From positions 705,001 through 769,000 of the forward strand of contig NZ_CP118753.2 in the NCBI RefSeq assembly GCF_034480035.2: a DNA stretch of 64,000 nt, read 5' to 3'. Origin of the DNA: Methanosphaera sp. ISO3-F5. GTDB lineage: Archaea > Methanobacteriota > Methanobacteria > Methanobacteriales > Methanobacteriaceae. Below are positions 12,801-47,236 of this stretch, piece after piece. The notes under the pieces were generated by a model. That model saw nothing but the letters and a program-made list of their open reading frames with translations, was not told the origin of the DNA and ran no database searches. Position 1 is the first letter of the stretch; every line of letters starts with the position of its first letter. A program made the translations under genes and the position numbers.

Positions 12801-14551
12801 TTATAATTATTGTCTGAATTAGATGTTACAGTAGATCCATATCGATTAATTCGATATGTATATAATGGTTCTTCAATTACTGACATTCTAATAGCATTTA
12901 AATATATATTATAGAAAAATACTTCATCTTCAAATATTATATTTTCTGGAAATTTAATATTCTTGTTTAATAAAAAATTTTTATTATATAATTTATTAAT
13001 AGGGGTAACTGATATTTCATTAGTAAATTCTAAGGTGTGCCAATGATTAAAAACTGGTTTTTTAAAGTTATCAAAACATTTTAAAGAATAATACCAATCA
13101 TTTGTATTTTCCTTTTTAGTAATATCATCATATGTCTTAACAGCACACATTACAATATCTAAATCTTTTTGTATAGCTTTTTCATATAACTTTTTAAACA
13201 TATCTTTATCAATGAAATCATCACTGTCTACAAAACCTATATATTTTCCAATTGCATGATCAATACCTAAATTTCGAGCAATTGCTTGACCTTCATTTTT
13301 CTTTGAAATAATTTTTATTCTAGAATCTTCTTTAGCATATTTCTCAATAATTTTTAAAGAATTGTCTGTTGATCCGTCATCAATACAAATTATTTCTATT
13401 TCTTTTAATGTTTGATTTATAACACTTTTTAAGCATTCGTCTAAGTATTTTTCAACATTATATACTGGGATAATTATGGAGACTTTGATATTTTCGTTAT
13501 ACTTTTGATTATTATTAATTATTTTCTTTAAATGAGTATTGTCAATAGAATTATATTCATTAAATTTGATATTTTTAAACAGATTTATGAAATCTTCATT
13601 TATATATTCTGTTTTTATTAAATTTTTTTCATCGATATGTTCTAGAATTTTTTTAATGTTATTATATATTTGTGGAAAATTGTTTAATAAATAATTTAAA
13701 TTTGCATTTAAAATGAATTCCTTTAAATCATATAAAATGTTTTCTTGAATGAATGTTGGAACATTTTTAAATTCATTTAAACATTTATCTAATAATTTTA
13801 AATGACATTCATCAAATCTTTTAGAATAATACTTTTTATCAAATATTATGCTATCAGAAATTCCTAAAAAGTCCATATGTTTTCTGTAATAATACTTTGC
13901 TTGATTTATAAAACAAACATTGCTATTATACAATAAATAAGTATTTACGAATAAAAAATCTTCTGAAAAATTTAAATTTTCGTTAAATGTAATGTTATTT
14001 TTTTCTATTTTTGCTGAGTTGAAAAATGTATTTGTTACAGAAGTAACTGGATAAGGATACTCCTCTTTTAAATTGAATACTTTGTTTAAATATTTTTTAT
14101 TTACAATATTTTCTCTGTTTTCTTGTTCAAAATAAATTTTTTTGATTGAAACTAAATCCACATTTGTACTATTAAAAGTATTATACACTTCTTCTAGACA
14201 GTTTTCAGACAAGTAATCATCACTATCTAAAAAATTTATATATTCTCCCTTAATGTATTTTAGGCCCTGATTTCTTGCATTTGATTGTCCTTGATTTTCT
14301 TGTTTTATTGTTACAATATTGTCTGGGTATAATTTTTTATAGTAATCTATTATATTTTGTGAAGAATCTGTACTTCCATCGTTCACTATAATTAATTGGA
14401 CATTGTTTACAAAACCAATGGTCTGATTTAAAATAGAATCAATTGATTTATCTAAATAGTTTTCAGAATTATAAACACTCATTATAATTGAAAATTTAAA
14501 TGGAATACTGTTATTTGAAGGTATATCCTCAAAATTAATGAAAATCACCAC
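9836..14551 (-). CDS. Triple GT2 plus CDP-glycerol glycerophosphotransferase-type protein
   Basis: A 1571-aa multidomain protein. Three GT2 domains start near residues 19, 357 and 692 (FSIIMSVYN, VSIIIPVYN, FTVVMPIYN). Each has NDGSTD or DDGSTD and a DSDD metal site, so all three look active. A beta-rich linker (~1020-1200) precedes a TagB/TagF-like domain (~1220-1571) with YFIQHGVT, FKPHP and LLITDYSSVSFDFAYLKKP. Known members of that family transfer glycerol- or ribitol-phosphate from a CDP donor onto wall teichoic acids. The protein likely makes a sugar and polyol-phosphate backbone on the cytoplasmic side. Start: GTG 14551 lies inside a GGTGAT ribosome binding site. The site is better spaced for ATT 14539, so AUU initiation is possible. 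No ATG occurs before residue 24. Confidence 0.85.
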   Translation of the reverse strand: MVIFINFEDIPSNNSIPFKFSIIMSVYNSENYLDKSIDSILNQTIGFVNNVQLIIVNDGSTDSSQNIIDYYKKLYPDNIVTIKQENQGQSNARNQGLKYIKGEYINFLDSDDYLSENCLEEVYNTFNSTNVDLVSIKKIYFEQENRENIVNKKYLNKVFNLKEEYPYPVTSVTNTFFNSAKIEKNNITFNENLNFSEDFLFVNTYLLYNSNVCFINQAKYYYRKHMDFLGISDSIIFDKKYYSKRFDECHLKLLDKCLNEFKNVPTFIQENILYDLKEFILNANLNYLLNNFPQIYNNIKKILEHIDEKNLIKTEYINEDFINLFKNIKFNEYNSIDNTHLKKIINNNQKYNENIKVSIIIPVYNVEKYLDECLKSVINQTLKEIEIICIDDGSTDNSLKIIEKYAKEDSRIKIISKKNEGQAIARNLGIDHAIGKYIGFVDSDDFIDKDMFKKLYEKAIQKDLDIVMCAVKTYDDITKKENTNDWYYSLKCFDNFKKPVFNHWHTLEFTNEISVTPINKLYNKNFLLNKNIKFPENIIFEDEVFFYNIYLNAIRMSVIEEPLYTYRINRYGSTVTSNSDNNYKDIVKVFKHIRDIFIKKDRLKIYKKQLYNKMINGCLTRYSQTAPKYKSEFWELLKEDFSSIISFNKTDEDEYKLNINELDIKIRNRTKKLLLSNTYETFKEKDSFKEFTVVMPIYNTEKYLDDAIQSIITQSIGFVHNVQLILVNDGSTDSSQEIIDKYQQLYPDNILSLKQENQGQSSARNYGLNHVKGKYVNFLDSDDYLSYNCFKDVYNFFEKHSDETDVVALPLYQFGRTNSPHILNYKFKKERVIDLLKEPNNPQLTISSTFIKSEMFENIRFKTGFMGSEDANVINKILLNKKTLGVINSSKYFYRRRENEKSTLDTMGNNFLHYTPRLKYHFLDLIKYCLDYELHIPYFIQYMMAYDIQWILNISDINVFKDDMEHEEFLYYLNIILNYIENEVILNNFNIKNKDLKKFFYTLKNGQKIIIENNNVKLKTNKIVLDQLKTHQIWLDIIEIKESKLLISGLFNSYFNREHLSISAIKNNQERYISKPIFYTLRKDKKFLSKIWKYNSSFEIEIPLDSAEINSVNLELNYHKNKNKKDFSKDNLKTVNVGINFNKFCNISKYNKYSIYQDTILTYENNSFKIYPYSYKKLVKLEKDTLKQFKNNDNPVFKHTYKLRLIYLLLFPIIKYFKYLKNIWIFMDRINLAGDNSEALFNYAINQKDNIMKFYVISENSEDYSKLKHKKHIIKYNSLKHKLLYLFADKIIVSHPDEEVHNPFYPYYSYYCGLTTAKKYFIQHGVTVNNVSTWLKRYEKNLSLISTVSKYEHDSFINSGYGYNENIIKILGFPRHDLLKTNKKDIKKQILLVPTWRNNDDNKEELLSSTYFKNLKKLLNNKKLFEILHNNGYKLVFKPHPNLQKYIHLLEIPKEVINGTSIPYDKLFRESSLLITDYSSVSFDFAYLKKPIIYYQYYEQFNFDTKKSYFNYENMGFGEIIKTEDLLIETIRKYLENNCLMKSKYKERVEKFYKFSDNNNCQRNYAWIKNN

Positions 14552-35061: not shown

Positions 35062-36837
35062 ATGTTGTCAGAAGAATTAGAAAATATCAGATTAACAATG
35101 CTGAACACATTCAAAAATCAGGTAAACACCCTGTTTGACTTATACATAAAAAATATTATAAACTTCAGCACACTCCAATCCAGACTCAAAATATTACTCA
35201 TAGCATGGGGACAGAACAGACTGGACATAAAAAACTACGGAACAGAAACAAACAAAATAGAATTCCTCGAATACAACCAGGGTATCAGAATCAAACAGGC
35301 ACCCTGGATGAAAAACAATGAAGGGGAAGGATACACCATATCAAGCAACCACGGAACAGATAATTATCTGATTAAGTGCATAAACAGTGGAAAACTGAAA
35401 CTCATGTTTAGGGCAATGGATTACAGGGACATAAACAACAAAAGAATTCCCATATACGTGGACTACATAAAAATACAGATAAACGGGGAAGACCAGCTGA
35501 ACACACATAAACTCTCATGGCACAACGAACCGGTCAATATAGTCAAGGAATGCGACAACGAACAGAAATTTCATATAATACTGCAGTTCCGCACAATATT
35601 TGACTATTACCCTAAACTCAAAAGCATATTCGACAACATAAAAGTAAAAAACACACTTGAAGAACATGAATTCATCAACAAATTCCTTGACTGCGAAATA
35701 ATGCTCCTCAAATACAACAACCAGAAAGACTCCTCAATGGAACTTTTCAATTACATGAACGAAAACAGGGAACTCTTTGATGACAACCAAGAAATACTCG
35801 AATCATACGAAGTATTTTCAAACTTCCTCAACAACTACGAAAAATACCAGAAAATGTATAACCAGACAGAATACTTGACACAAAAAATAGAATACCTTGA
35901 AATGACAATAAACAGATACGAAAGACAACTGGATGCAATATCATCATCAAACAACGACCTTTTCAACACAATATTCCTCGACTACCAGCTGACACCGAAC
36001 AGATTATACGCCAACATAAAAGAACTCTGCACACAGCTGTTGAAATTCATGGACAACATATGTCGCAAACATGATATAAACTGGTGGATAGACTTCGGAA
36101 ACCTACTCGGAGCAGTACGGCACGAAAACTTCATACCATGGGATGATGATCTGGACATAGGAATGATGAGACAGGACTACCATCACCTCATAAGTGTAAT
36201 GTATGATGAAATAAACGAACATGGCCTGGATGACTGTATAAACGTTTACTACAGATACCGAAAACTGAATGCAAAACAGCTCAACTCATTCGCACAACTG
36301 TTTGTAATGGATAGGGAACGTGCTGGCGGAAACGTAATGGCAGGACTCGATGTCTTCCCATATGACTACATGAAAGAACAGGACACACAGAACATCGGAA
36401 CAAGATACAACACAGCACAGAGAAACTTCTACAGCAACCTGACACGCGGAGATGATAGGTCAACAGTATACATGGGACTGGACTATGATAAAGTAATAGG
36501 AACATACTATGAGGAACTGGGATTATCATATGAAAAACAGCCGTATATCATACCTGGAGTAGAAGGAGCATATGGATACAAACAGAACCTCTATGAATTC
36601 AAAATATTTGAAACAGACAAAATATTCCCGTTAAGTGAGGTTCAATTTGGAAAATACAGATTCCCTGCACCAAATGATGTGGATTACTATCTTACAAATA
36701 CTTATGGGGAATACATGACCATACCGAAAACAATCAGATGTCACGGAAGGGTATCAAACTTCAGAAAAATACCTGAAATAAACGAAACATTTGAAATGTA
36801 CGTGGACAGATTCCGGGAAGTAAACAGTAACTTCTGA
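35062..36837 (+). CDS. LicD-family phosphotransferase with N-terminal beta domain
   Basis: A 591-aa protein with the same plan as the one at 29607. It has a helical start, a beta domain ~51-190 (NRLDIKNYG, APWMKNNEGEG, IKCINSGKLKLMFRAMDYRD, LSWHNEP), a helical/coiled-coil stretch ~200-310, and a LicD domain ~330-591 (FMDNICRKHDINWWIDFGNL, LGAVRHENFIPWDDDLDIGM, AGLDVFPYDYM). The WDDDLD acidic motif is intact. It likely transfers a phospho-linked group such as phosphocholine. The GGTG ribosome binding site fits either ATG 35062 or TTG 35065. A TATA-like TATTTATACT about 55 bp upstream suggests its own promoter. Confidence 0.82.
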   Translation: MLSEELENIRLTMLNTFKNQVNTLFDLYIKNIINFSTLQSRLKILLIAWGQNRLDIKNYGTETNKIEFLEYNQGIRIKQAPWMKNNEGEGYTISSNHGTDNYLIKCINSGKLKLMFRAMDYRDINNKRIPIYVDYIKIQINGEDQLNTHKLSWHNEPVNIVKECDNEQKFHIILQFRTIFDYYPKLKSIFDNIKVKNTLEEHEFINKFLDCEIMLLKYNNQKDSSMELFNYMNENRELFDDNQEILESYEVFSNFLNNYEKYQKMYNQTEYLTQKIEYLEMTINRYERQLDAISSSNNDLFNTIFLDYQLTPNRLYANIKELCTQLLKFMDNICRKHDINWWIDFGNLLGAVRHENFIPWDDDLDIGMMRQDYHHLISVMYDEINEHGLDDCINVYYRYRKLNAKQLNSFAQLFVMDRERAGGNVMAGLDVFPYDYMKEQDTQNIGTRYNTAQRNFYSNLTRGDDRSTVYMGLDYDKVIGTYYEELGLSYEKQPYIIPGVEGAYGYKQNLYEFKIFETDKIFPLSEVQFGKYRFPAPNDVDYYLTNTYGEYMTIPKTIRCHGRVSNFRKIPEINETFEMYVDRFREVNSNF

Positions 36838-36938
36838 CAAACTGAACTCCCATATCTTATTCAGACAGACATATTGTAAATACCCGAGTAAACTTTTAAC
36901 AATCATATTAAAATAAAAGTTAACACAAAACTTTAACC

Positions 36939-36945
36939 AGAGGTG
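36939..36945 (+). promoter_or_regulatory. Ribosome binding site pointing to an AUU start
   Basis: AGAGGTG matches the archaeal consensus GGAGGTGAT. It lies 7 nt before ATT 36953 and 4 nt before ATT 36950, both in frame with the downstream gene. There is no comparable site before the first in-frame ATG (37001), which is 55 nt away. Confidence 0.6.
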
Positions 36946-36952
36946 TATAATT

Positions 36953-37849
36953 ATTATATTAGATTTATTAGATGGAAAAAATCCGGGATCCGAAGATTCA
37001 ATGGCATATAAATTCGAGACCAACGCCACGGAATTTGACATTATCTTCAAAATAACAGATATCAAGAAAAGATTTTTTCCACATGTGGGTATAACAGCAC
37101 GTGAAGGTATATCAGTAATGTACAGGTTAACAGGAACACAAAACTGGTGTAATATTGATTTTTTCTTCAAAAAACCAAGGGAAACAATAGACATGTCCTG
37201 CTATGTGGATGAAGGCGAAAACTATGAAATACTGATTTATGTACCGATTATTGCTAGAATCAGCCAGCTGGAAATAGAAGTACCTGAAGGTTCACATATA
37301 AGCAAAATAACAACACCCCCAAACAAGACAATGGTGGTTGTGGGGGGACCAACAAGTTACGGCATAGGATGTACAAGTGTTAAAAACATGTTCTCCAATA
37401 TACTGGAAAGAAAATATGATGCAGAGGTAAGCCACGTAACATACAATGAAAAAAACTACCTTGAATCAGTACTTGACTACTATAATAATGATTATCCTCT
37501 TATAGCAGATGTCGGAATAATCGAACTTGACCAGTTCAGACAGAACGAATCAGCAGTAGAGGAAATACTTCCCCAGCTGATATCAATAATGAAACAGAGA
37601 TGCAAATACCTGATAGGATGGTATGCAATACCCGAGTCAAAGGTATTCAAGAAAATCATAGCAAACAACACAATAAAGGATTATGTCTACAACAATGAAA
37701 TCCAGATTATAGACTTGTCATACATATATGATGAGGAACACAGGGACATGTGTGCATACAATGATTATTTCATTAATGACACTGGAAACATAATAATATA
37801 CAAGCAGCTGGACAAAACATTAAGGAGATTACCTCAATGGAATATTTAA
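36953..37849 (+). CDS. Inactive-looking SGNH-like protein, partner of the next gene
   Basis: About 298 aa if translation starts at ATT 36953, or 282 aa from ATG 37001. The longer form begins ILDLLDGKN, which aligns with MLLDLLKNKN at the start of the homologue at 45261 and is preceded by AGAGGTG, so I prefer it. A beta-rich half (FPHVGITAREGISVMYR) precedes an SGNH-like half with VVGGPTSYGIGCTSV, where the family would have GDS or GNS. Near the end stands YFINDTGNIIIYKQL, where the family would have DxxH. Pro replaces the nucleophile Ser in the alignment and the His is gone, so it is probably a pseudoenzyme. It overlaps the SGNH gene by 13 nt, exactly as in the pair at 45261/46175. A complex with that protein is inferred. 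Confidence 0.72.
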   Translation: MILDLLDGKNPGSEDSMAYKFETNATEFDIIFKITDIKKRFFPHVGITAREGISVMYRLTGTQNWCNIDFFFKKPRETIDMSCYVDEGENYEILIYVPIIARISQLEIEVPEGSHISKITTPPNKTMVVVGGPTSYGIGCTSVKNMFSNILERKYDAEVSHVTYNEKNYLESVLDYYNNDYPLIADVGIIELDQFRQNESAVEEILPQLISIMKQRCKYLIGWYAIPESKVFKKIIANNTIKDYVYNNEIQIIDLSYIYDEEHRDMCAYNDYFINDTGNIIIYKQLDKTLRRLPQWNI

Positions 37850-38895
37850 AATCAGTAAAAGATCCGTTAAAAAAGATTAATGACAAAAATTTCAAATATC
37901 TGAATCTCTTTAAATACCCGCCACTGGTATTCGGAACAAACAGATCCGATAAGGTAGATTTCTGCAAATACCCTAAAGAAGTACGGACTGAGATAATGAA
38001 ATTACATCCGAAAACAAAGTACCTGATGGAGTACCATAAGGCATCAACATGTGGGTGCCGTATTAGATTCAAGACAACATCAAGAAAACTGATATTCAGA
38101 ATAAAACTCAGAAGAGGATACAACTATAAGAACATGGTAATGTGGAACTCATCAGCATTAAGCATATACACAGTTGACAAAAAAGGAAAATATCACTATA
38201 AAACATTACTGACACCAAGTGCTGGAAAAAACTGCTTTGCAGAGGCAATAAGATTACCAGCGGACAGTTCGGTATGCATATTCCTGCCAAGCTATGATAC
38301 AATAGAGGAAATGTATATAGGTTTTGAAGAAAAGGCACGCATATTCCGGTTCAACTATCCTAAAGACAACAGATTACCTGTAATATTCTATGGGGGCAGT
38401 GCGGCACAGGGAGCATCAGCAACAAAAAGTTCAAACAGTTATCCCAATATTGTCAGCAGAAAATTAAACCGGGACATAATAAACTACTCAATTACAAGAT
38501 GTTGCAAGGCAACACCATCCATGGCAAAGATTATAGGTCAGACAGACTGTGACAGCATAGTAATCGATTACTCTAGGGATGCAAAAGATAAGAAGGAACT
38601 CATGGAAAGACATGAAAAATTCTATAAACAGATACGGCAGGCACACCCTGACAGGAAGATAATACTCCTCACAACAGCTTCATTCAACGGAAGCAAAAAA
38701 TATGAAGGATATGATGAAATCATACAGAAAACATACGAAAACGCATTGTCACGGGGAGAAAAAACACACCTAATAAACCAGAGAGAACTGTTTAAAAAAG
38801 AAGATTATGACATAATATCATTCAACAACGGATATTATACAGACTATGCAATGTTTAAACTTGCAGATAAGATTTGTGAAATAATAAATTCATAA
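37837..38895 (+). CDS. SGNH-family protein with altered catalytic block V
   Basis: A 352-aa homologue of the SGNH proteins at 7165 and 46175. The beta-rich first half (RIRFKTTSRKLIFRIKLRRG, MVMWNSSALSIYTV) is kept. Block I is FYGGSAAQGASATKSSNSYP near 185-204, so the nucleophile Ser is kept. Block V reads FNNGYYTDYAM instead of IDGCHYTDYGM, so both the Asp and the His of the catalytic set are replaced (Asn and Tyr). It may be inactive, or use another residue. AGGAGAT precedes the ATG. It overlaps the upstream gene by 13 nt and probably forms a complex with its product. No signal peptide is seen. Confidence 0.75.
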   Translation: MEYLKSVKDPLKKINDKNFKYLNLFKYPPLVFGTNRSDKVDFCKYPKEVRTEIMKLHPKTKYLMEYHKASTCGCRIRFKTTSRKLIFRIKLRRGYNYKNMVMWNSSALSIYTVDKKGKYHYKTLLTPSAGKNCFAEAIRLPADSSVCIFLPSYDTIEEMYIGFEEKARIFRFNYPKDNRLPVIFYGGSAAQGASATKSSNSYPNIVSRKLNRDIINYSITRCCKATPSMAKIIGQTDCDSIVIDYSRDAKDKKELMERHEKFYKQIRQAHPDRKIILLTTASFNGSKKYEGYDEIIQKTYENALSRGEKTHLINQRELFKKEDYDIISFNNGYYTDYAMFKLADKICEIINS

Positions 38896-38972: not shown

Positions 38973-40982
38973 TTGGATTTTGAAATAAGATATAAAGATG
39001 CAATGGCAAGAATAGGAACATTCGAAACACCACACGGTACTGTAACAACACCAAATCTCATGCCCGTGGTTCATCCAGGAAAACAAACTCTTGATGTAAA
39101 ACAATTCGGTGCAGAAATAGTAATAACAAACTCATATATAATATACAAAAATGAACACCTAAAAGAAAAAGCACTAAAAGATGGAGTACATTCTCTAATA
39201 GACTTTCCAGGAACAATAGAAACAGATTCAGGTTCATTCCAACTATCAGTATATGGTGACATAGACATAAACAATGAAGAAGTAATAAAATTCCAAGAAG
39301 CAATAGGAACAGATATAGGGACAAGCCTAGACATACCAACAGCACCATATGTTAAACGAGAAGAAGCAGAAGAAGACCTTAAAATCACAATAGAAAGAGC
39401 AGAAGAAGCATCAAAGGTACGGAAAAAATTACTATTAAACAGTGTAGTACAAGGATCAACATACCCTGACCTAAGAGAATACTGTGCAAAAGAAATATCA
39501 AAATACGATGCAGACATATATCCAATAGGAGCAGTAGTACCATTAATGGAAATGTACCGATATGCAGACTTAGTGGATGCAGTAATGTACTCTATGAGAG
39601 GACTACCAGAAAACAAGCCAAGACACCTGATGGGAGCAGGACATCCAATGGTATTTGCCCTAGCAGTAGCAATGGGATGTGACCTATTTGACAGTGCAGC
39701 ATACATACTATACGCAAACAAAGACAGGTTCATGATGCCCGATGGAACATTAAAACTTGAAAACCTCATAGAAATGCCATGCAGTTGCAGAGTATGCACA
39801 GAACACACACCAGACCAACTAAGACAAATGCCACAAGAACAAAGAGCAAAACTCATAGCAGAACACAACCTCCACATAAGCTTTGCAGAAATAAGAAGAA
39901 TCAGACAAGCAATTGTTGACGGCGAACTGATGAAACTAGTAGAAACAAGGTGCAGGTCCCATCCATTCCTATTAGACGGACTAAGAAGACTACAAGAATA
40001 TACAGATGATATGGAAAAACTAAACCCAAGCAGCAAAAAATCAGCATTCTTCTACACAGGATACGAATCACTATCAAGATCAGAAGTGCAAAGACACAAA
40101 GAAAAACTAGAAAATATAACCCCAAAAAACAAAAACCTCATCATACTACCAAGCACAAGCAAACCCTACTCAAAACATGCAAACAAGGAATACATCAAAA
40201 AATACACACCAAAAATACCAACATTCTACTCAAAAACAACAAACACAGACTACACAGAAAGTGACATAGTTATAGCTGATATACCATTCGGAATAATACC
40301 ATTAGGACTTGATGAATTCTATCCATTAGCACAAAACGAATCACCAACAAATACTGATGAAAACTCAAAAAAATACATACAACAAGCCATCAATGAATAC
40401 TCCCAAAAATATGAAAACATTCTCATACACAGAAAAGTAGTAGGAAAATATGACCTGACAGATTATAAATTAATCGAAGAAGAACTAAAACTGCCAGAAG
40501 CAAAAGTAACAGACTTTGACAGACTTAAAACAATCGCAGATTATCAATTTGGAAAAGGATCAGGAGATGCATTATTCGGGGACAATCCAGAAAAAATTAA
40601 AATAGAAAAAAGTAAAAAAACAGGTAAAATCAGGCATGTATACCAAGATGATGATATAATAGTGAATATGAGAGCAAATGATGGTTTCCTAATATTATCA
40701 GATCTTGGAGCAATCAGATTACATAAACATTTACCAAGTCCAAACTTAAGGGTAGTGGTATCAGAGGACTCTGAACCATATGCACTTAAAGGAAAATCAG
40801 TATTCAATAAATTCGTCATAGATTGTGATGAAAAAATAAGAAGAAATGATGAAGTACTAATAGTAAATAAGGATGATAAACTATTAGCATGTGGAAAATC
40901 ATTATTATCCAGTTATGAGATAAAAGACTTTAACACAGGTCAAGCAATAAAAACAAGAAAAATAAAAAAATTAACAGGGTAG
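38973..40982 (+). CDS. tgtA: Archaeosine tRNA-guanine(15) transglycosylase
   Basis: A 669-aa protein, the normal size for archaeal TGT. The enzyme exchanges guanine-15 in the D-loop of archaeal tRNAs for preQ0, the first step to archaeosine. The TIM-barrel catalytic domain carries FGAEIVITNSYIIYK, GTIETDSGSFQLS (Asp nucleophile region), and the zinc site CSCRVCTEH plus His near 270-300. Middle domains follow, and a C-terminal PUA domain (~595-669) with LRVVVSEDSEPYALKGKSVF. The start is TTG 38973, after GGAATGATGATAAC. First of a three-gene housekeeping operon (gaps of 6 and 7 nt). This gene is the firmest sign of an archaeal host. Confidence 0.96.
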   Translation: MDFEIRYKDAMARIGTFETPHGTVTTPNLMPVVHPGKQTLDVKQFGAEIVITNSYIIYKNEHLKEKALKDGVHSLIDFPGTIETDSGSFQLSVYGDIDINNEEVIKFQEAIGTDIGTSLDIPTAPYVKREEAEEDLKITIERAEEASKVRKKLLLNSVVQGSTYPDLREYCAKEISKYDADIYPIGAVVPLMEMYRYADLVDAVMYSMRGLPENKPRHLMGAGHPMVFALAVAMGCDLFDSAAYILYANKDRFMMPDGTLKLENLIEMPCSCRVCTEHTPDQLRQMPQEQRAKLIAEHNLHISFAEIRRIRQAIVDGELMKLVETRCRSHPFLLDGLRRLQEYTDDMEKLNPSSKKSAFFYTGYESLSRSEVQRHKEKLENITPKNKNLIILPSTSKPYSKHANKEYIKKYTPKIPTFYSKTTNTDYTESDIVIADIPFGIIPLGLDEFYPLAQNESPTNTDENSKKYIQQAINEYSQKYENILIHRKVVGKYDLTDYKLIEEELKLPEAKVTDFDRLKTIADYQFGKGSGDALFGDNPEKIKIEKSKKTGKIRHVYQDDDIIVNMRANDGFLILSDLGAIRLHKHLPSPNLRVVVSEDSEPYALKGKSVFNKFVIDCDEKIRRNDEVLIVNKDDKLLACGKSLLSSYEIKDFNTGQAIKTRKIKKLTG

Positions 40983-45260: not shown

Positions 45261-46187
45261 ATGTTACTTGATTTACTAAAAAATAAAAATTCAGAAAAAA
45301 ATCATGAATATGATCAATCCATCTACAAAATCAAACTAAATTCCCCTGAATTCAGGATATCCTATGAAATAACAAAAATACAAAAAGGATACTATCCCCA
45401 AGTAGGAATAACAGCTAGACAAGGGATATTAATATTATACAAGTATCCTGATAATAACACATGGCATAACCTGGACAGTTACAGCAGAAGAAAGAACATA
45501 AACATCAATATGAAAACATATAACATTGACAAACATGTAAAAGACAATGAAACCTATGAACTAATGATAATAAGTCCAATACTCAGTCAACTAAAAACAT
45601 TAACAATAGAAGTACCCGAGGACAAAACAGTTCAACTAGACACAACTATATCAGATAAAAAAATAGTAGTAGCTGGTGGAATACACTCCTATGGGATAGG
45701 ATGCACAACAGTAGGACTAAAATTCTCAAACATTTTGTCACGAAACATGAATTTATCCATAATGGACTTAACATATAACAATAGGACAAGCTACCTTGAA
45801 AACATAAACAATTACTATGAAGAAAATCCATTAGCCTCAGATGCAAATGTTGGAATACTGGAATTAGACTATGCCTTACAAGACGATGAAATAGTAAATG
45901 AATACCTTAAAAATGTAGTAAATCATATGTTGAGACAATGTGACCATTTAATATGCTGGTACTGCCTACCAAAACAGAAATTATACAAACGAGCATTAAT
46001 ATTCGACAATTTAATGGAAGAGATTACAGAAAAGAAAATAACAATTCTTGACCTTTCATACATATATGATGAAGACCACGAAGACATGTGCACTGCCAGT
46101 ATGAACTTTATTAATGATGCAGCAAACGTATTAATATACAAAAAGCTTAAAGAGACAATAATGGAGGTAACAAAATGGAATATCTGA
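45261..46187 (+). CDS. Inactive-looking SGNH-like protein, partner of the next gene
   Basis: A 308-aa homologue of the proteins at 8228 and 36953. It begins MLLDLLKNKNSEK. The beta-rich half has YYPQVGITARQGILILYK. The SGNH-like half has VVAGGIHSYGIGCTTVGLKF, with Ile at the place of the nucleophile Ser. The end has FINDAANVLIYKKL, with no DxxH. The catalytic set therefore looks absent. It ends KWNI and overlaps the start of the SGNH gene by 13 nt in the same way as at 37837. The overlap TGGAATATCTGA is read in two frames. The ribosome binding site is weak. A 205-bp AT-rich gap separates it from the TarI-like gene, so it may have its own promoter. Confidence 0.75.
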   Translation: MLLDLLKNKNSEKNHEYDQSIYKIKLNSPEFRISYEITKIQKGYYPQVGITARQGILILYKYPDNNTWHNLDSYSRRKNININMKTYNIDKHVKDNETYELMIISPILSQLKTLTIEVPEDKTVQLDTTISDKKIVVAGGIHSYGIGCTTVGLKFSNILSRNMNLSIMDLTYNNRTSYLENINNYYEENPLASDANVGILELDYALQDDEIVNEYLKNVVNHMLRQCDHLICWYCLPKQKLYKRALIFDNLMEEITEKKITILDLSYIYDEDHEDMCTASMNFINDAANVLIYKKLKETIMEVTKWNI

Positions 46188-47236
46188 AATCCATTAACAA
46201 TAAATTAAATAAAATATCAGAAAACAACATAGAATATTTTGATTTATTTGACCGACCAGACCTTGTCTATGGAAACATTAACGCATTCCAGGAAAGAGTA
46301 AACTTCTGTAAAATACCAATTGAATCACAGGAAGAAATAAGAAACAATTGGAAAACATGTACTCATTCACTTGATTTGTTTAAAAATGCTAGTTGTGGAA
46401 ACGTTATAAGATTACATACCAACTCAAAAAAACTAATACTCAAAGCCAATATCCAGAGAGATGAAAGTTTTGAAAAAGCATTAAACTGGAATTCCATGGG
46501 ATTTGACATATACAATATAGAAAATGACGGAAAATACAAGCATAACAATATATTTGCACCAATGGATGGTCATAATATATTTGCCAACACAATAAGAGTA
46601 CCTGAACATGGAAACATATGTATATACCTACCAAACTTCACAGAAATAAAAGAAATGCAGATAGGTGTTCTTAAAGGAAAAACAGTGGAAGCATACAAGT
46701 ACCCAGAAAACAAGTTACCTATAATCTTTTATGGAAACTCAGTAACACAGGGAGCAGCAGCATCACGAAGTGGAAACACTTTTCCTAACATTATAAGCAG
46801 AAAACTGAACAATGAAATAATAAATTTATCTAGTTCCTCCTGTTGTAAGGGAATAAAAAGTATGGCTGATATGATAGGTAGAATCAACTGTCAATGCATA
46901 GTAATAGACTATACTAGAAGTGCAACAAGTGCAAAAATGCTTCAAGATACACACGAAACTTTTTATAAAACTATACGAAAATATCATCCAGACAAGAAAA
47001 TAATTCTTTTAACCACAGAAGGATTTAATGACTGGAGATTATCTAACTCATTTGATAAAATAGTATCAAGAACATACAAAAATGCTAAATTAAATGGTGA
47101 AAATACTGAGATAATAAACCAAAGAAAATTATTCTCCGAAGAAGAATATAGTTATGTGGGTATAGATTCAGCACACTATACAGATTATGGTATGTACAAA
47201 ATAGCAGATGCAATATGTGATAAAATAGTAGAATAA
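46175..47236 (+). CDS. SGNH/GDSL-family esterase or acyltransferase
   Basis: A 353-aa protein, the closest relative of the one at 7165. The beta-rich half (RLHTNSKKLILKANIQRDES, NWNSMGFDIYNI) precedes an SGNH domain with an intact set: FYGNSVTQGAAASRSGNTFP near 186-205 (Ser in GNS), CCKGIKSMADMIG, and IDSAHYTDYGM near 330-341 (Asp and His). It is probably an active O-acyl esterase or transferase for a glycan. GGAGGTAAC precedes the ATG. It is followed at 18 nt by a GT2 gene. No signal peptide, so cytoplasmic. Confidence 0.8.
   Translation: MEYLKSINNKLNKISENNIEYFDLFDRPDLVYGNINAFQERVNFCKIPIESQEEIRNNWKTCTHSLDLFKNASCGNVIRLHTNSKKLILKANIQRDESFEKALNWNSMGFDIYNIENDGKYKHNNIFAPMDGHNIFANTIRVPEHGNICIYLPNFTEIKEMQIGVLKGKTVEAYKYPENKLPIIFYGNSVTQGAAASRSGNTFPNIISRKLNNEIINLSSSSCCKGIKSMADMIGRINCQCIVIDYTRSATSAKMLQDTHETFYKTIRKYHPDKKIILLTTEGFNDWRLSNSFDKIVSRTYKNAKLNGENTEIINQRKLFSEEEYSYVGIDSAHYTDYGMYKIADAICDKIVE

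Follow-up and report, generated by a model that had tools for sequence, protein, structure and literature searches.

An open reading frame in the window (the whole stretch of 64,000 nucleotides analysed, from a 2.68 Mb Methanosphaera genome in two contigs) begins without any canonical start codon at the place where its protein appears to begin. A codon-by-codon reading of the frame finds no ATG, GTG or TTG from its opening at 36917 to the ATG at 37001, which raises the question of where its translation starts. The answer proposed here, based on comparison of sequences, is that translation very probably starts at the AUU codon at 36953, with the ordinary initiator Met-tRNAi and a strong Shine-Dalgarno (SD) sequence, and that the gene exemplifies a small, conserved class of AUU, AUA and AUC (AUN) starts in Methanobacteriales. 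The gene is archaeal and not bacterial, since position 38973 holds the gene for TgtA, the archaeal tRNA-guanosine(15) transglycosylase, and the nearest named relative is a Methanosphaera sp. (RGIG2546, 78% identical at the locus). The features of the locus are collected in Table 1.

Table 1. Features of the AUU-gene locus and of its paralogous gene pair (window coordinates)
Feature	Position	Strand	Remarks
Upstream gene, LicD family	35062-36837	+	
Frame holding ATG 37001	opens after TAA 36914-36916	+	
SD, AGAGGTG	36939-36945	+	GAGGTG pairs with the 16S tail (anti-SD) at -8.0 kcal/mol
Run of 42 bases identical to L018	36939-36980	+	SD, ATT and first nine codons
ATT, alternative start codon	36950-36952	+	same SD, spacing 4 nt
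ATT, proposed start codon (AUU)	36953-36955	+	based on orthologue/paralogue column and SD spacing
AUU gene, GxDLY / SGNH-esterase-associated protein	36953-37849	+	298 aa; PF14607, E 9e-8
First canonical ATG	37001-37003	+	probably internal Met17; SD at normal spacing absent
Second gene of the pair, GDSL-like lipase and GxDLY	37837-38895	+	own SD AGGAG, 37823-37827
Paralogue of the AUU gene	45261-46187	+	normal ATG start
Paralogue of the second gene	46175-47236	+	same 13-nt overlap with its partner

The in-frame codons that precede 37001 include ATA 36947, ATT 36950, ATT 36953, ATA 36956 and TTA 36959. The original prediction chose ATT 36953 on the grounds that no canonical codon precedes ATG 37001 in frame and that a good ribosome binding site lies 7 nt before it. 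The first point is borne out by the frame read from 36917 and the second by the pairing energy of the site. When the 84 nt upstream were dinucleotide-shuffled 2000 times, an equally strong SD preceded some in-frame ATT, ATA or ATC in 24 cases. The GTG inside this SD is out of frame and opens a short frame only. The match that had been seen with the N-terminus of the homologue at 45261 stands, its MLLDLLKNKN aligning without gaps to the sequence translated from 36953, with the correction that the latter reads IILDLLDGKN and not ILDLLDGKN.

One SD is common to ATT 36950, ATT 36953 and ATA 36956, so the choice of the exact start codon rests on spacing and alignment. Initiation at one of the two neighbours is unlikely: both are in frame, ATA 36956 with a spacing of 10 nt, and other genes do show ATA starts, but the spacing of 36953 is mid-range and the alignment with orthologues and with ATG-started paralogues points to that codon.

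Homologues of the AUU gene were found in 7 of 60 relatives' genomes, a tally that includes the window's own genome, all in the same genus; a later search within the genus matched 8 of 20 genomes. Four loci that are too divergent, fused or damaged (L003, L004, L010 and L014) were left out of the alignment of the start column, and L018 has the same sequence as L124 at the start of the gene. The column of ATT 36953 holds ATT in three further orthologues (L018, L006 and L008), ATA in one (L007) and ATG in none, which gives ATT in 4/5 and ATA in 1/5 with the window included. The ATG in related genomes that would have counted against the original prediction did not appear in these orthologues. Paralogue L011 also has ATT, while seven others (L002, L009, L012, L013, L015, L016 and L017) have ATG and a common N-terminus, M-x-[LI]-[DNE]-[LF]-[LF]. 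A TTG lies two codons past the column in L007 and L011. The chance that the AUU reflects a sequencing error, a pseudogene or a frameshift is negligible, as the same state is found in independently assembled genomes and the frame is open and conserved: compared with L018, from a sister lineage, the 282 codons from Met17 onward comprise 127 identical ones, 92 with synonymous and 63 with nonsynonymous changes.

The 16 codons before Met17 behave differently in the same comparison, 12 being identical and four changed nonsynonymously, none synonymously. The run of 42 identical bases that covers the SD and the ATT is the longest in 2.2 kb, the next longest measuring 26 nt. This run and the pattern of codon changes indicate that constraint lies on the initiation region rather than on the linker; the four nonsynonymous changes with no synonymous one leave the distal half of the extension without clear protein-level constraint. 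These data bear on translation from ATG 37001, in which case the upstream in-frame codons would be an untranslated leader. This ATG is kept in orthologues (as S-M-A/S-Y/F), a shorter product is possible and the N-terminal extension from 36953 adds nothing to the Pfam GxDLY match. Such a start is nevertheless very improbable: ATG 37001 has upstream only GATCC, at a spacing of 13, and the bases directly 5' of it differ between the window and L018, while conservation at the locus peaks in the strong SD, ATT 36953 and the first codons, and the seven paralogues with their shared N-terminus start with ATG at the 36953 column.

A regulatory RNA structure over the AUU start was considered and rejected, as folding of the start region is no better than that of shuffles (z 0.60) and an Rfam search of 36500-37400 gave no match.

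The AUU start is placed in a wider frame by five other families that have, behind an SD, ATT, ATA or ATC in the start column where relatives have ATG or TTG. From sequence motifs we take them to be an AksA-like synthase, a radical SAM protein, CbiD, RNase P p30 and RibL. This interchange of ATN with ATG and TTG at unrelated genes of the same archaeal order upholds the predicted AUU start, together with the same-column ATT in relatives and the conserved DNA of SD and ATT.

The AksA-like set comprises 30 loci (40 of 41 genomes matched; L158 lacks the N-terminus). Twelve of the 18 Methanosphaera loci with an N-terminus carry an AUN codon at the column (ATT 10, ATA 1, ATC 1), behind SDs of -6.1 to -8.6 kcal/mol; the others have ATG one codon later (5/18) or TTG (1/18), and all 11 outgroup loci have TTG one codon past the column. 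In the host genome the next in-frame canonical codon of this gene lies 73 codons downstream. For the radical SAM protein, the 18 Methanosphaera loci split into ATT (4), ATA (10), ATG (2) and TTG (2), and the 12 outgroup loci all have GTG or TTG. A canonical codon is also nearby in 5 of the 14 ATT/ATA loci (L180-L183 and L186), and in L176 and L177 the ATA is three codons past the aligned column. The 20 CbiD loci divide into 11 with ATA and nine with ATG. The seven nearest to the host genome, six of which have ATA, show a weak SD and five others a strong one; in L302 and L303 an ATG precedes the query start by eleven codons.

RNase P p30 extends the pattern to another genus, g18, probably Methanothermobacter. 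All eight species of g18 (L260-L267) have ATT (5) or ATC (3) with GGAGG-type sites upstream; an upstream canonical codon is absent in 7/8 and the next one downstream is 28-85 codons away, while in the other 22 of the 30 loci a canonical codon lies no more than two codons from the column. A search for a solved RNase P p30 structure, in which the N-terminus could be read, gave no match. RibL (FAD synthetase) was matched in 19 of 20 Methanosphaera genomes, and 18 of these 19 (L310-L327) have ATT at the start column, each with an SD. In these 18 loci an ATG follows three codons later, and several also have GTG or TTG 3-5 codons upstream. In 24 loci from other genera, ATG occupies the column or the codon preceding it in 21; the remaining three, all from g18, combine ATT at the column with an ATG ten codons upstream.

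The five families give no frequency, because they were picked for one AUN-looking member. In an 864 kb sample of the host genome, window included, 48 genes have a strong SD without a canonical SD-led start. ATT is in frame at SD spacing in nine of them; among 1433 internal SD-like sites it is so in 39 (p=1.2e-5). With three Methanosphaera samples pooled, ATT, ATA or ATC occurs in 19/80 cases in frame and 19/208 out of frame (p=0.0015), the out-of-frame controls being counted behind the same SDs. G042, from another family, gives 10/46 against 4/126 (p=0.0003), and G014 taken by itself shows no significant excess (3/15 against 5/40, p=0.38). A stricter screen, which asked for a coding signal 15 or more codons ahead of the first canonical codon, flags 22/434 genes in G000, 10/178 in G003, 10/270 in G014 and 8/289 in G042. 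Those flagged in G000 include three clear ATT starts behind a strong SD (the AksA-like gene, the radical SAM gene and the AUU gene) and CbiD as a fourth AUN case, whose SD is weak; the majority of the others have no SD. Neighbour genes in the fetched loci provide an unselected set (45 clusters with five or more Methanosphaera loci). Almost all of them have canonical starts, and about eleven real-looking families have canonical starts only. Clusters 10 and 21 of this set were tried as AUN starts and turned out to be an internal site and an antisense frame. A reciprocal-pair screen flagged at least 124 rows and is too noisy to serve as more than a lead. AUN starts are estimated at ~1% of genes.

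Initiation at AUU 36953 could proceed with ordinary components. The strong SD GAGGTG would hold the mRNA and position the 30S subunit at the AUU, where Met-tRNAi (anticodon CAU) would pair in the P site with the A and the U of the codon, the mismatch at the third base of AUN being tolerated. The product would be a Met-started protein of 298 residues, and the same tolerance of AUU, AUA and AUC would operate at the other Methanosphaera genes and at RNase P p30 in another genus. We infer the use of Met-tRNAi, the Met N-terminus and an initiation efficiency below that of AUG. An altered initiator tRNA was rejected as the cause: Methanosphaera shares an identical anticodon arm with the f2/f3 outgroups examined, and the rest of the molecule differs by single bases. 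An altered aIF1 was likewise rejected, as each of four genomes has one copy and the proteins are nearly identical. Without an explanatory mutation in either component, such tolerance may be the normal condition in archaea whose SDs are strong.

Whether AUN starts have a role is a separate matter. They might result from neutral drift of ATG to ATA, ATT or ATC in AT-rich genomes, with no regulatory role, the mutation being tolerated because the SD is strong. The columns of the AksA-like, radical SAM and CbiD genes, which shift among ATT, ATA, ATC, ATG and TTG, favour drift, as does the lack of a common function among AUN-started genes. RibL speaks against it: in its 18 loci, which comprise 17 distinct sequences, ATT, ATA and ATC alternate freely at four internal Ile columns, while the start column is ATT in 18/18 non-ATG cases. 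The window gene, with ATT in 4/5 orthologues and ATA in the fifth, leans the same way, but the pattern is clear for RibL only. The chances of drift appear evenly balanced.

RibL is thus a candidate for selected AUU initiation, and a weak, adjustable initiation is a plausible use of AUN starts, for which RibL, with its fixed AUU, makes the best case. At the window gene regulation through the AUU is only a possibility. The original prediction implied control of the bacterial IF3 type, which is not to be assumed in an archaeon such as Methanosphaera, and regulation at this gene has no direct support. A broader proposal would make AUU, AUA and AUC regular minor starts across Methanobacteriales, with third-base discrimination relaxed or overridden by a strong SD, and the AUU of RibL and of the wall-locus gene a selected translational throttle read by aIF1-dependent proofreading of the start codon, an archaeal counterpart of infC control. 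It is offered tentatively, with a probability that we put somewhat under one half.

ATN start usage is general in animal mitochondria, whose decoding apparatus is altered. The likeness is that AUU, AUA and AUC are found at the same positions as AUG; the difference is that here a small minority of genes is concerned and the anticodon arm of the initiator tRNA is as in outgroups. In bacteria rare AUU and AUC starts are documented for a handful of genes. Archaea, to our knowledge, have no IF3. According to PMC4611024, AUU, AUC and AUA starts occur in bacteria and are discriminated by IF3. PMC5472188 gives ATT as the start of infC, ATC being used in Streptomyces, and GTC as that of sigR, and notes that such starts escape gene callers; both papers describe how IF3 discriminates against the AUU of Escherichia coli infC and so closes a feedback loop. 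The AUU gene resembles infC in its AUU start behind an SD, and RibL does so in the conservation of the start codon. infC is, however, bacterial and autoregulated through IF3, whereas the AUU-gene product is of the GxDLY/SGNH type and not an initiation factor. The GTC start of Streptomyces sigR, repressed by IF3, is likewise a conserved rare start missed by gene callers, but codon and domain of life differ and regulation was shown experimentally for sigR, not for the AUU gene. The nearest archaeal fidelity factor to IF3 is aIF1, which proofreads the start codon (PMC6237735); that of Sulfolobus solfataricus is reported to favour discrimination against non-canonical starts (work cited in PMC6237735 and PMC8211752). 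An AUU start would have to pass this archaeal fidelity step, although the Sulfolobus data concern discrimination in vitro and not natural genes with AUN starts.

Searches of open-licence PMC papers, which take in little of the older methanogen biochemistry, yielded no account of natural AUN starts in any archaeon, Methanosphaera included. Orthologous archaeal start columns that switch among AUU, AUA, AUC, AUG and UUG show start-codon choice visibly evolving, in a form open to tests in cultured methanogens, and AUN starts make the third-base policing of the start codon in archaea directly testable. Because gene callers accept only ATG, GTG and TTG, AUN-started genes are probably annotated with truncated N-termini; this would concern the AksA-like synthase, CbiD, the radical SAM protein, RibL and RNase P p30.

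The protein of the AUU gene scores 32.5 bits for Pfam GxDLY (PF14607), above the gathering cut-off of 27; the L018 orthologue, at 23.2 bits, falls under it. Pfam finds no GDSL family match in the AUU-gene protein, while the protein of the next gene has one. The two genes overlap by 13 nt, and 115 nt separate the stop of the LicD gene from ATT 36953. The pairing of a GxDLY protein with a GDSL-lipase/GxDLY protein downstream of LicD suggests a role in surface-polymer modification. The second protein of the pair has NGYYTDY near its C-terminus where its paralogue has DSAHYTDY, the motif that presumably holds the Asp and His of the SGNH catalytic site; both residues thus seem lost in the former, which suggests a degenerate esterase.

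Several further frames were noticed in passing. L107:17449 (-), a frame of 188 aa whose N-terminus is hydrophobic and which lacks a canonical start, has TGGATAA just upstream, which speaks more for a frameshift or a sequencing indel than for an AUN start. A glycosyltransferase-like gene at window position 14539 (-), with GGTGATTTTC ATT AAT and two GTG codons in the SD region, is an AUU candidate, as is a UppP-like gene at L019:16166 (-), with GAGGTGATTATT ATT TTA GAT and a GTG inside the SD. The signal-peptide gene at L027:11076 looks like an AUU start. Signal-peptide surface proteins of two Methanosphaera species, at L058:17944 (-) and L072:13825 (+), have in common GGAGGTTTTATA ATT AAG GGT TAT, apparently a conserved AUU start.
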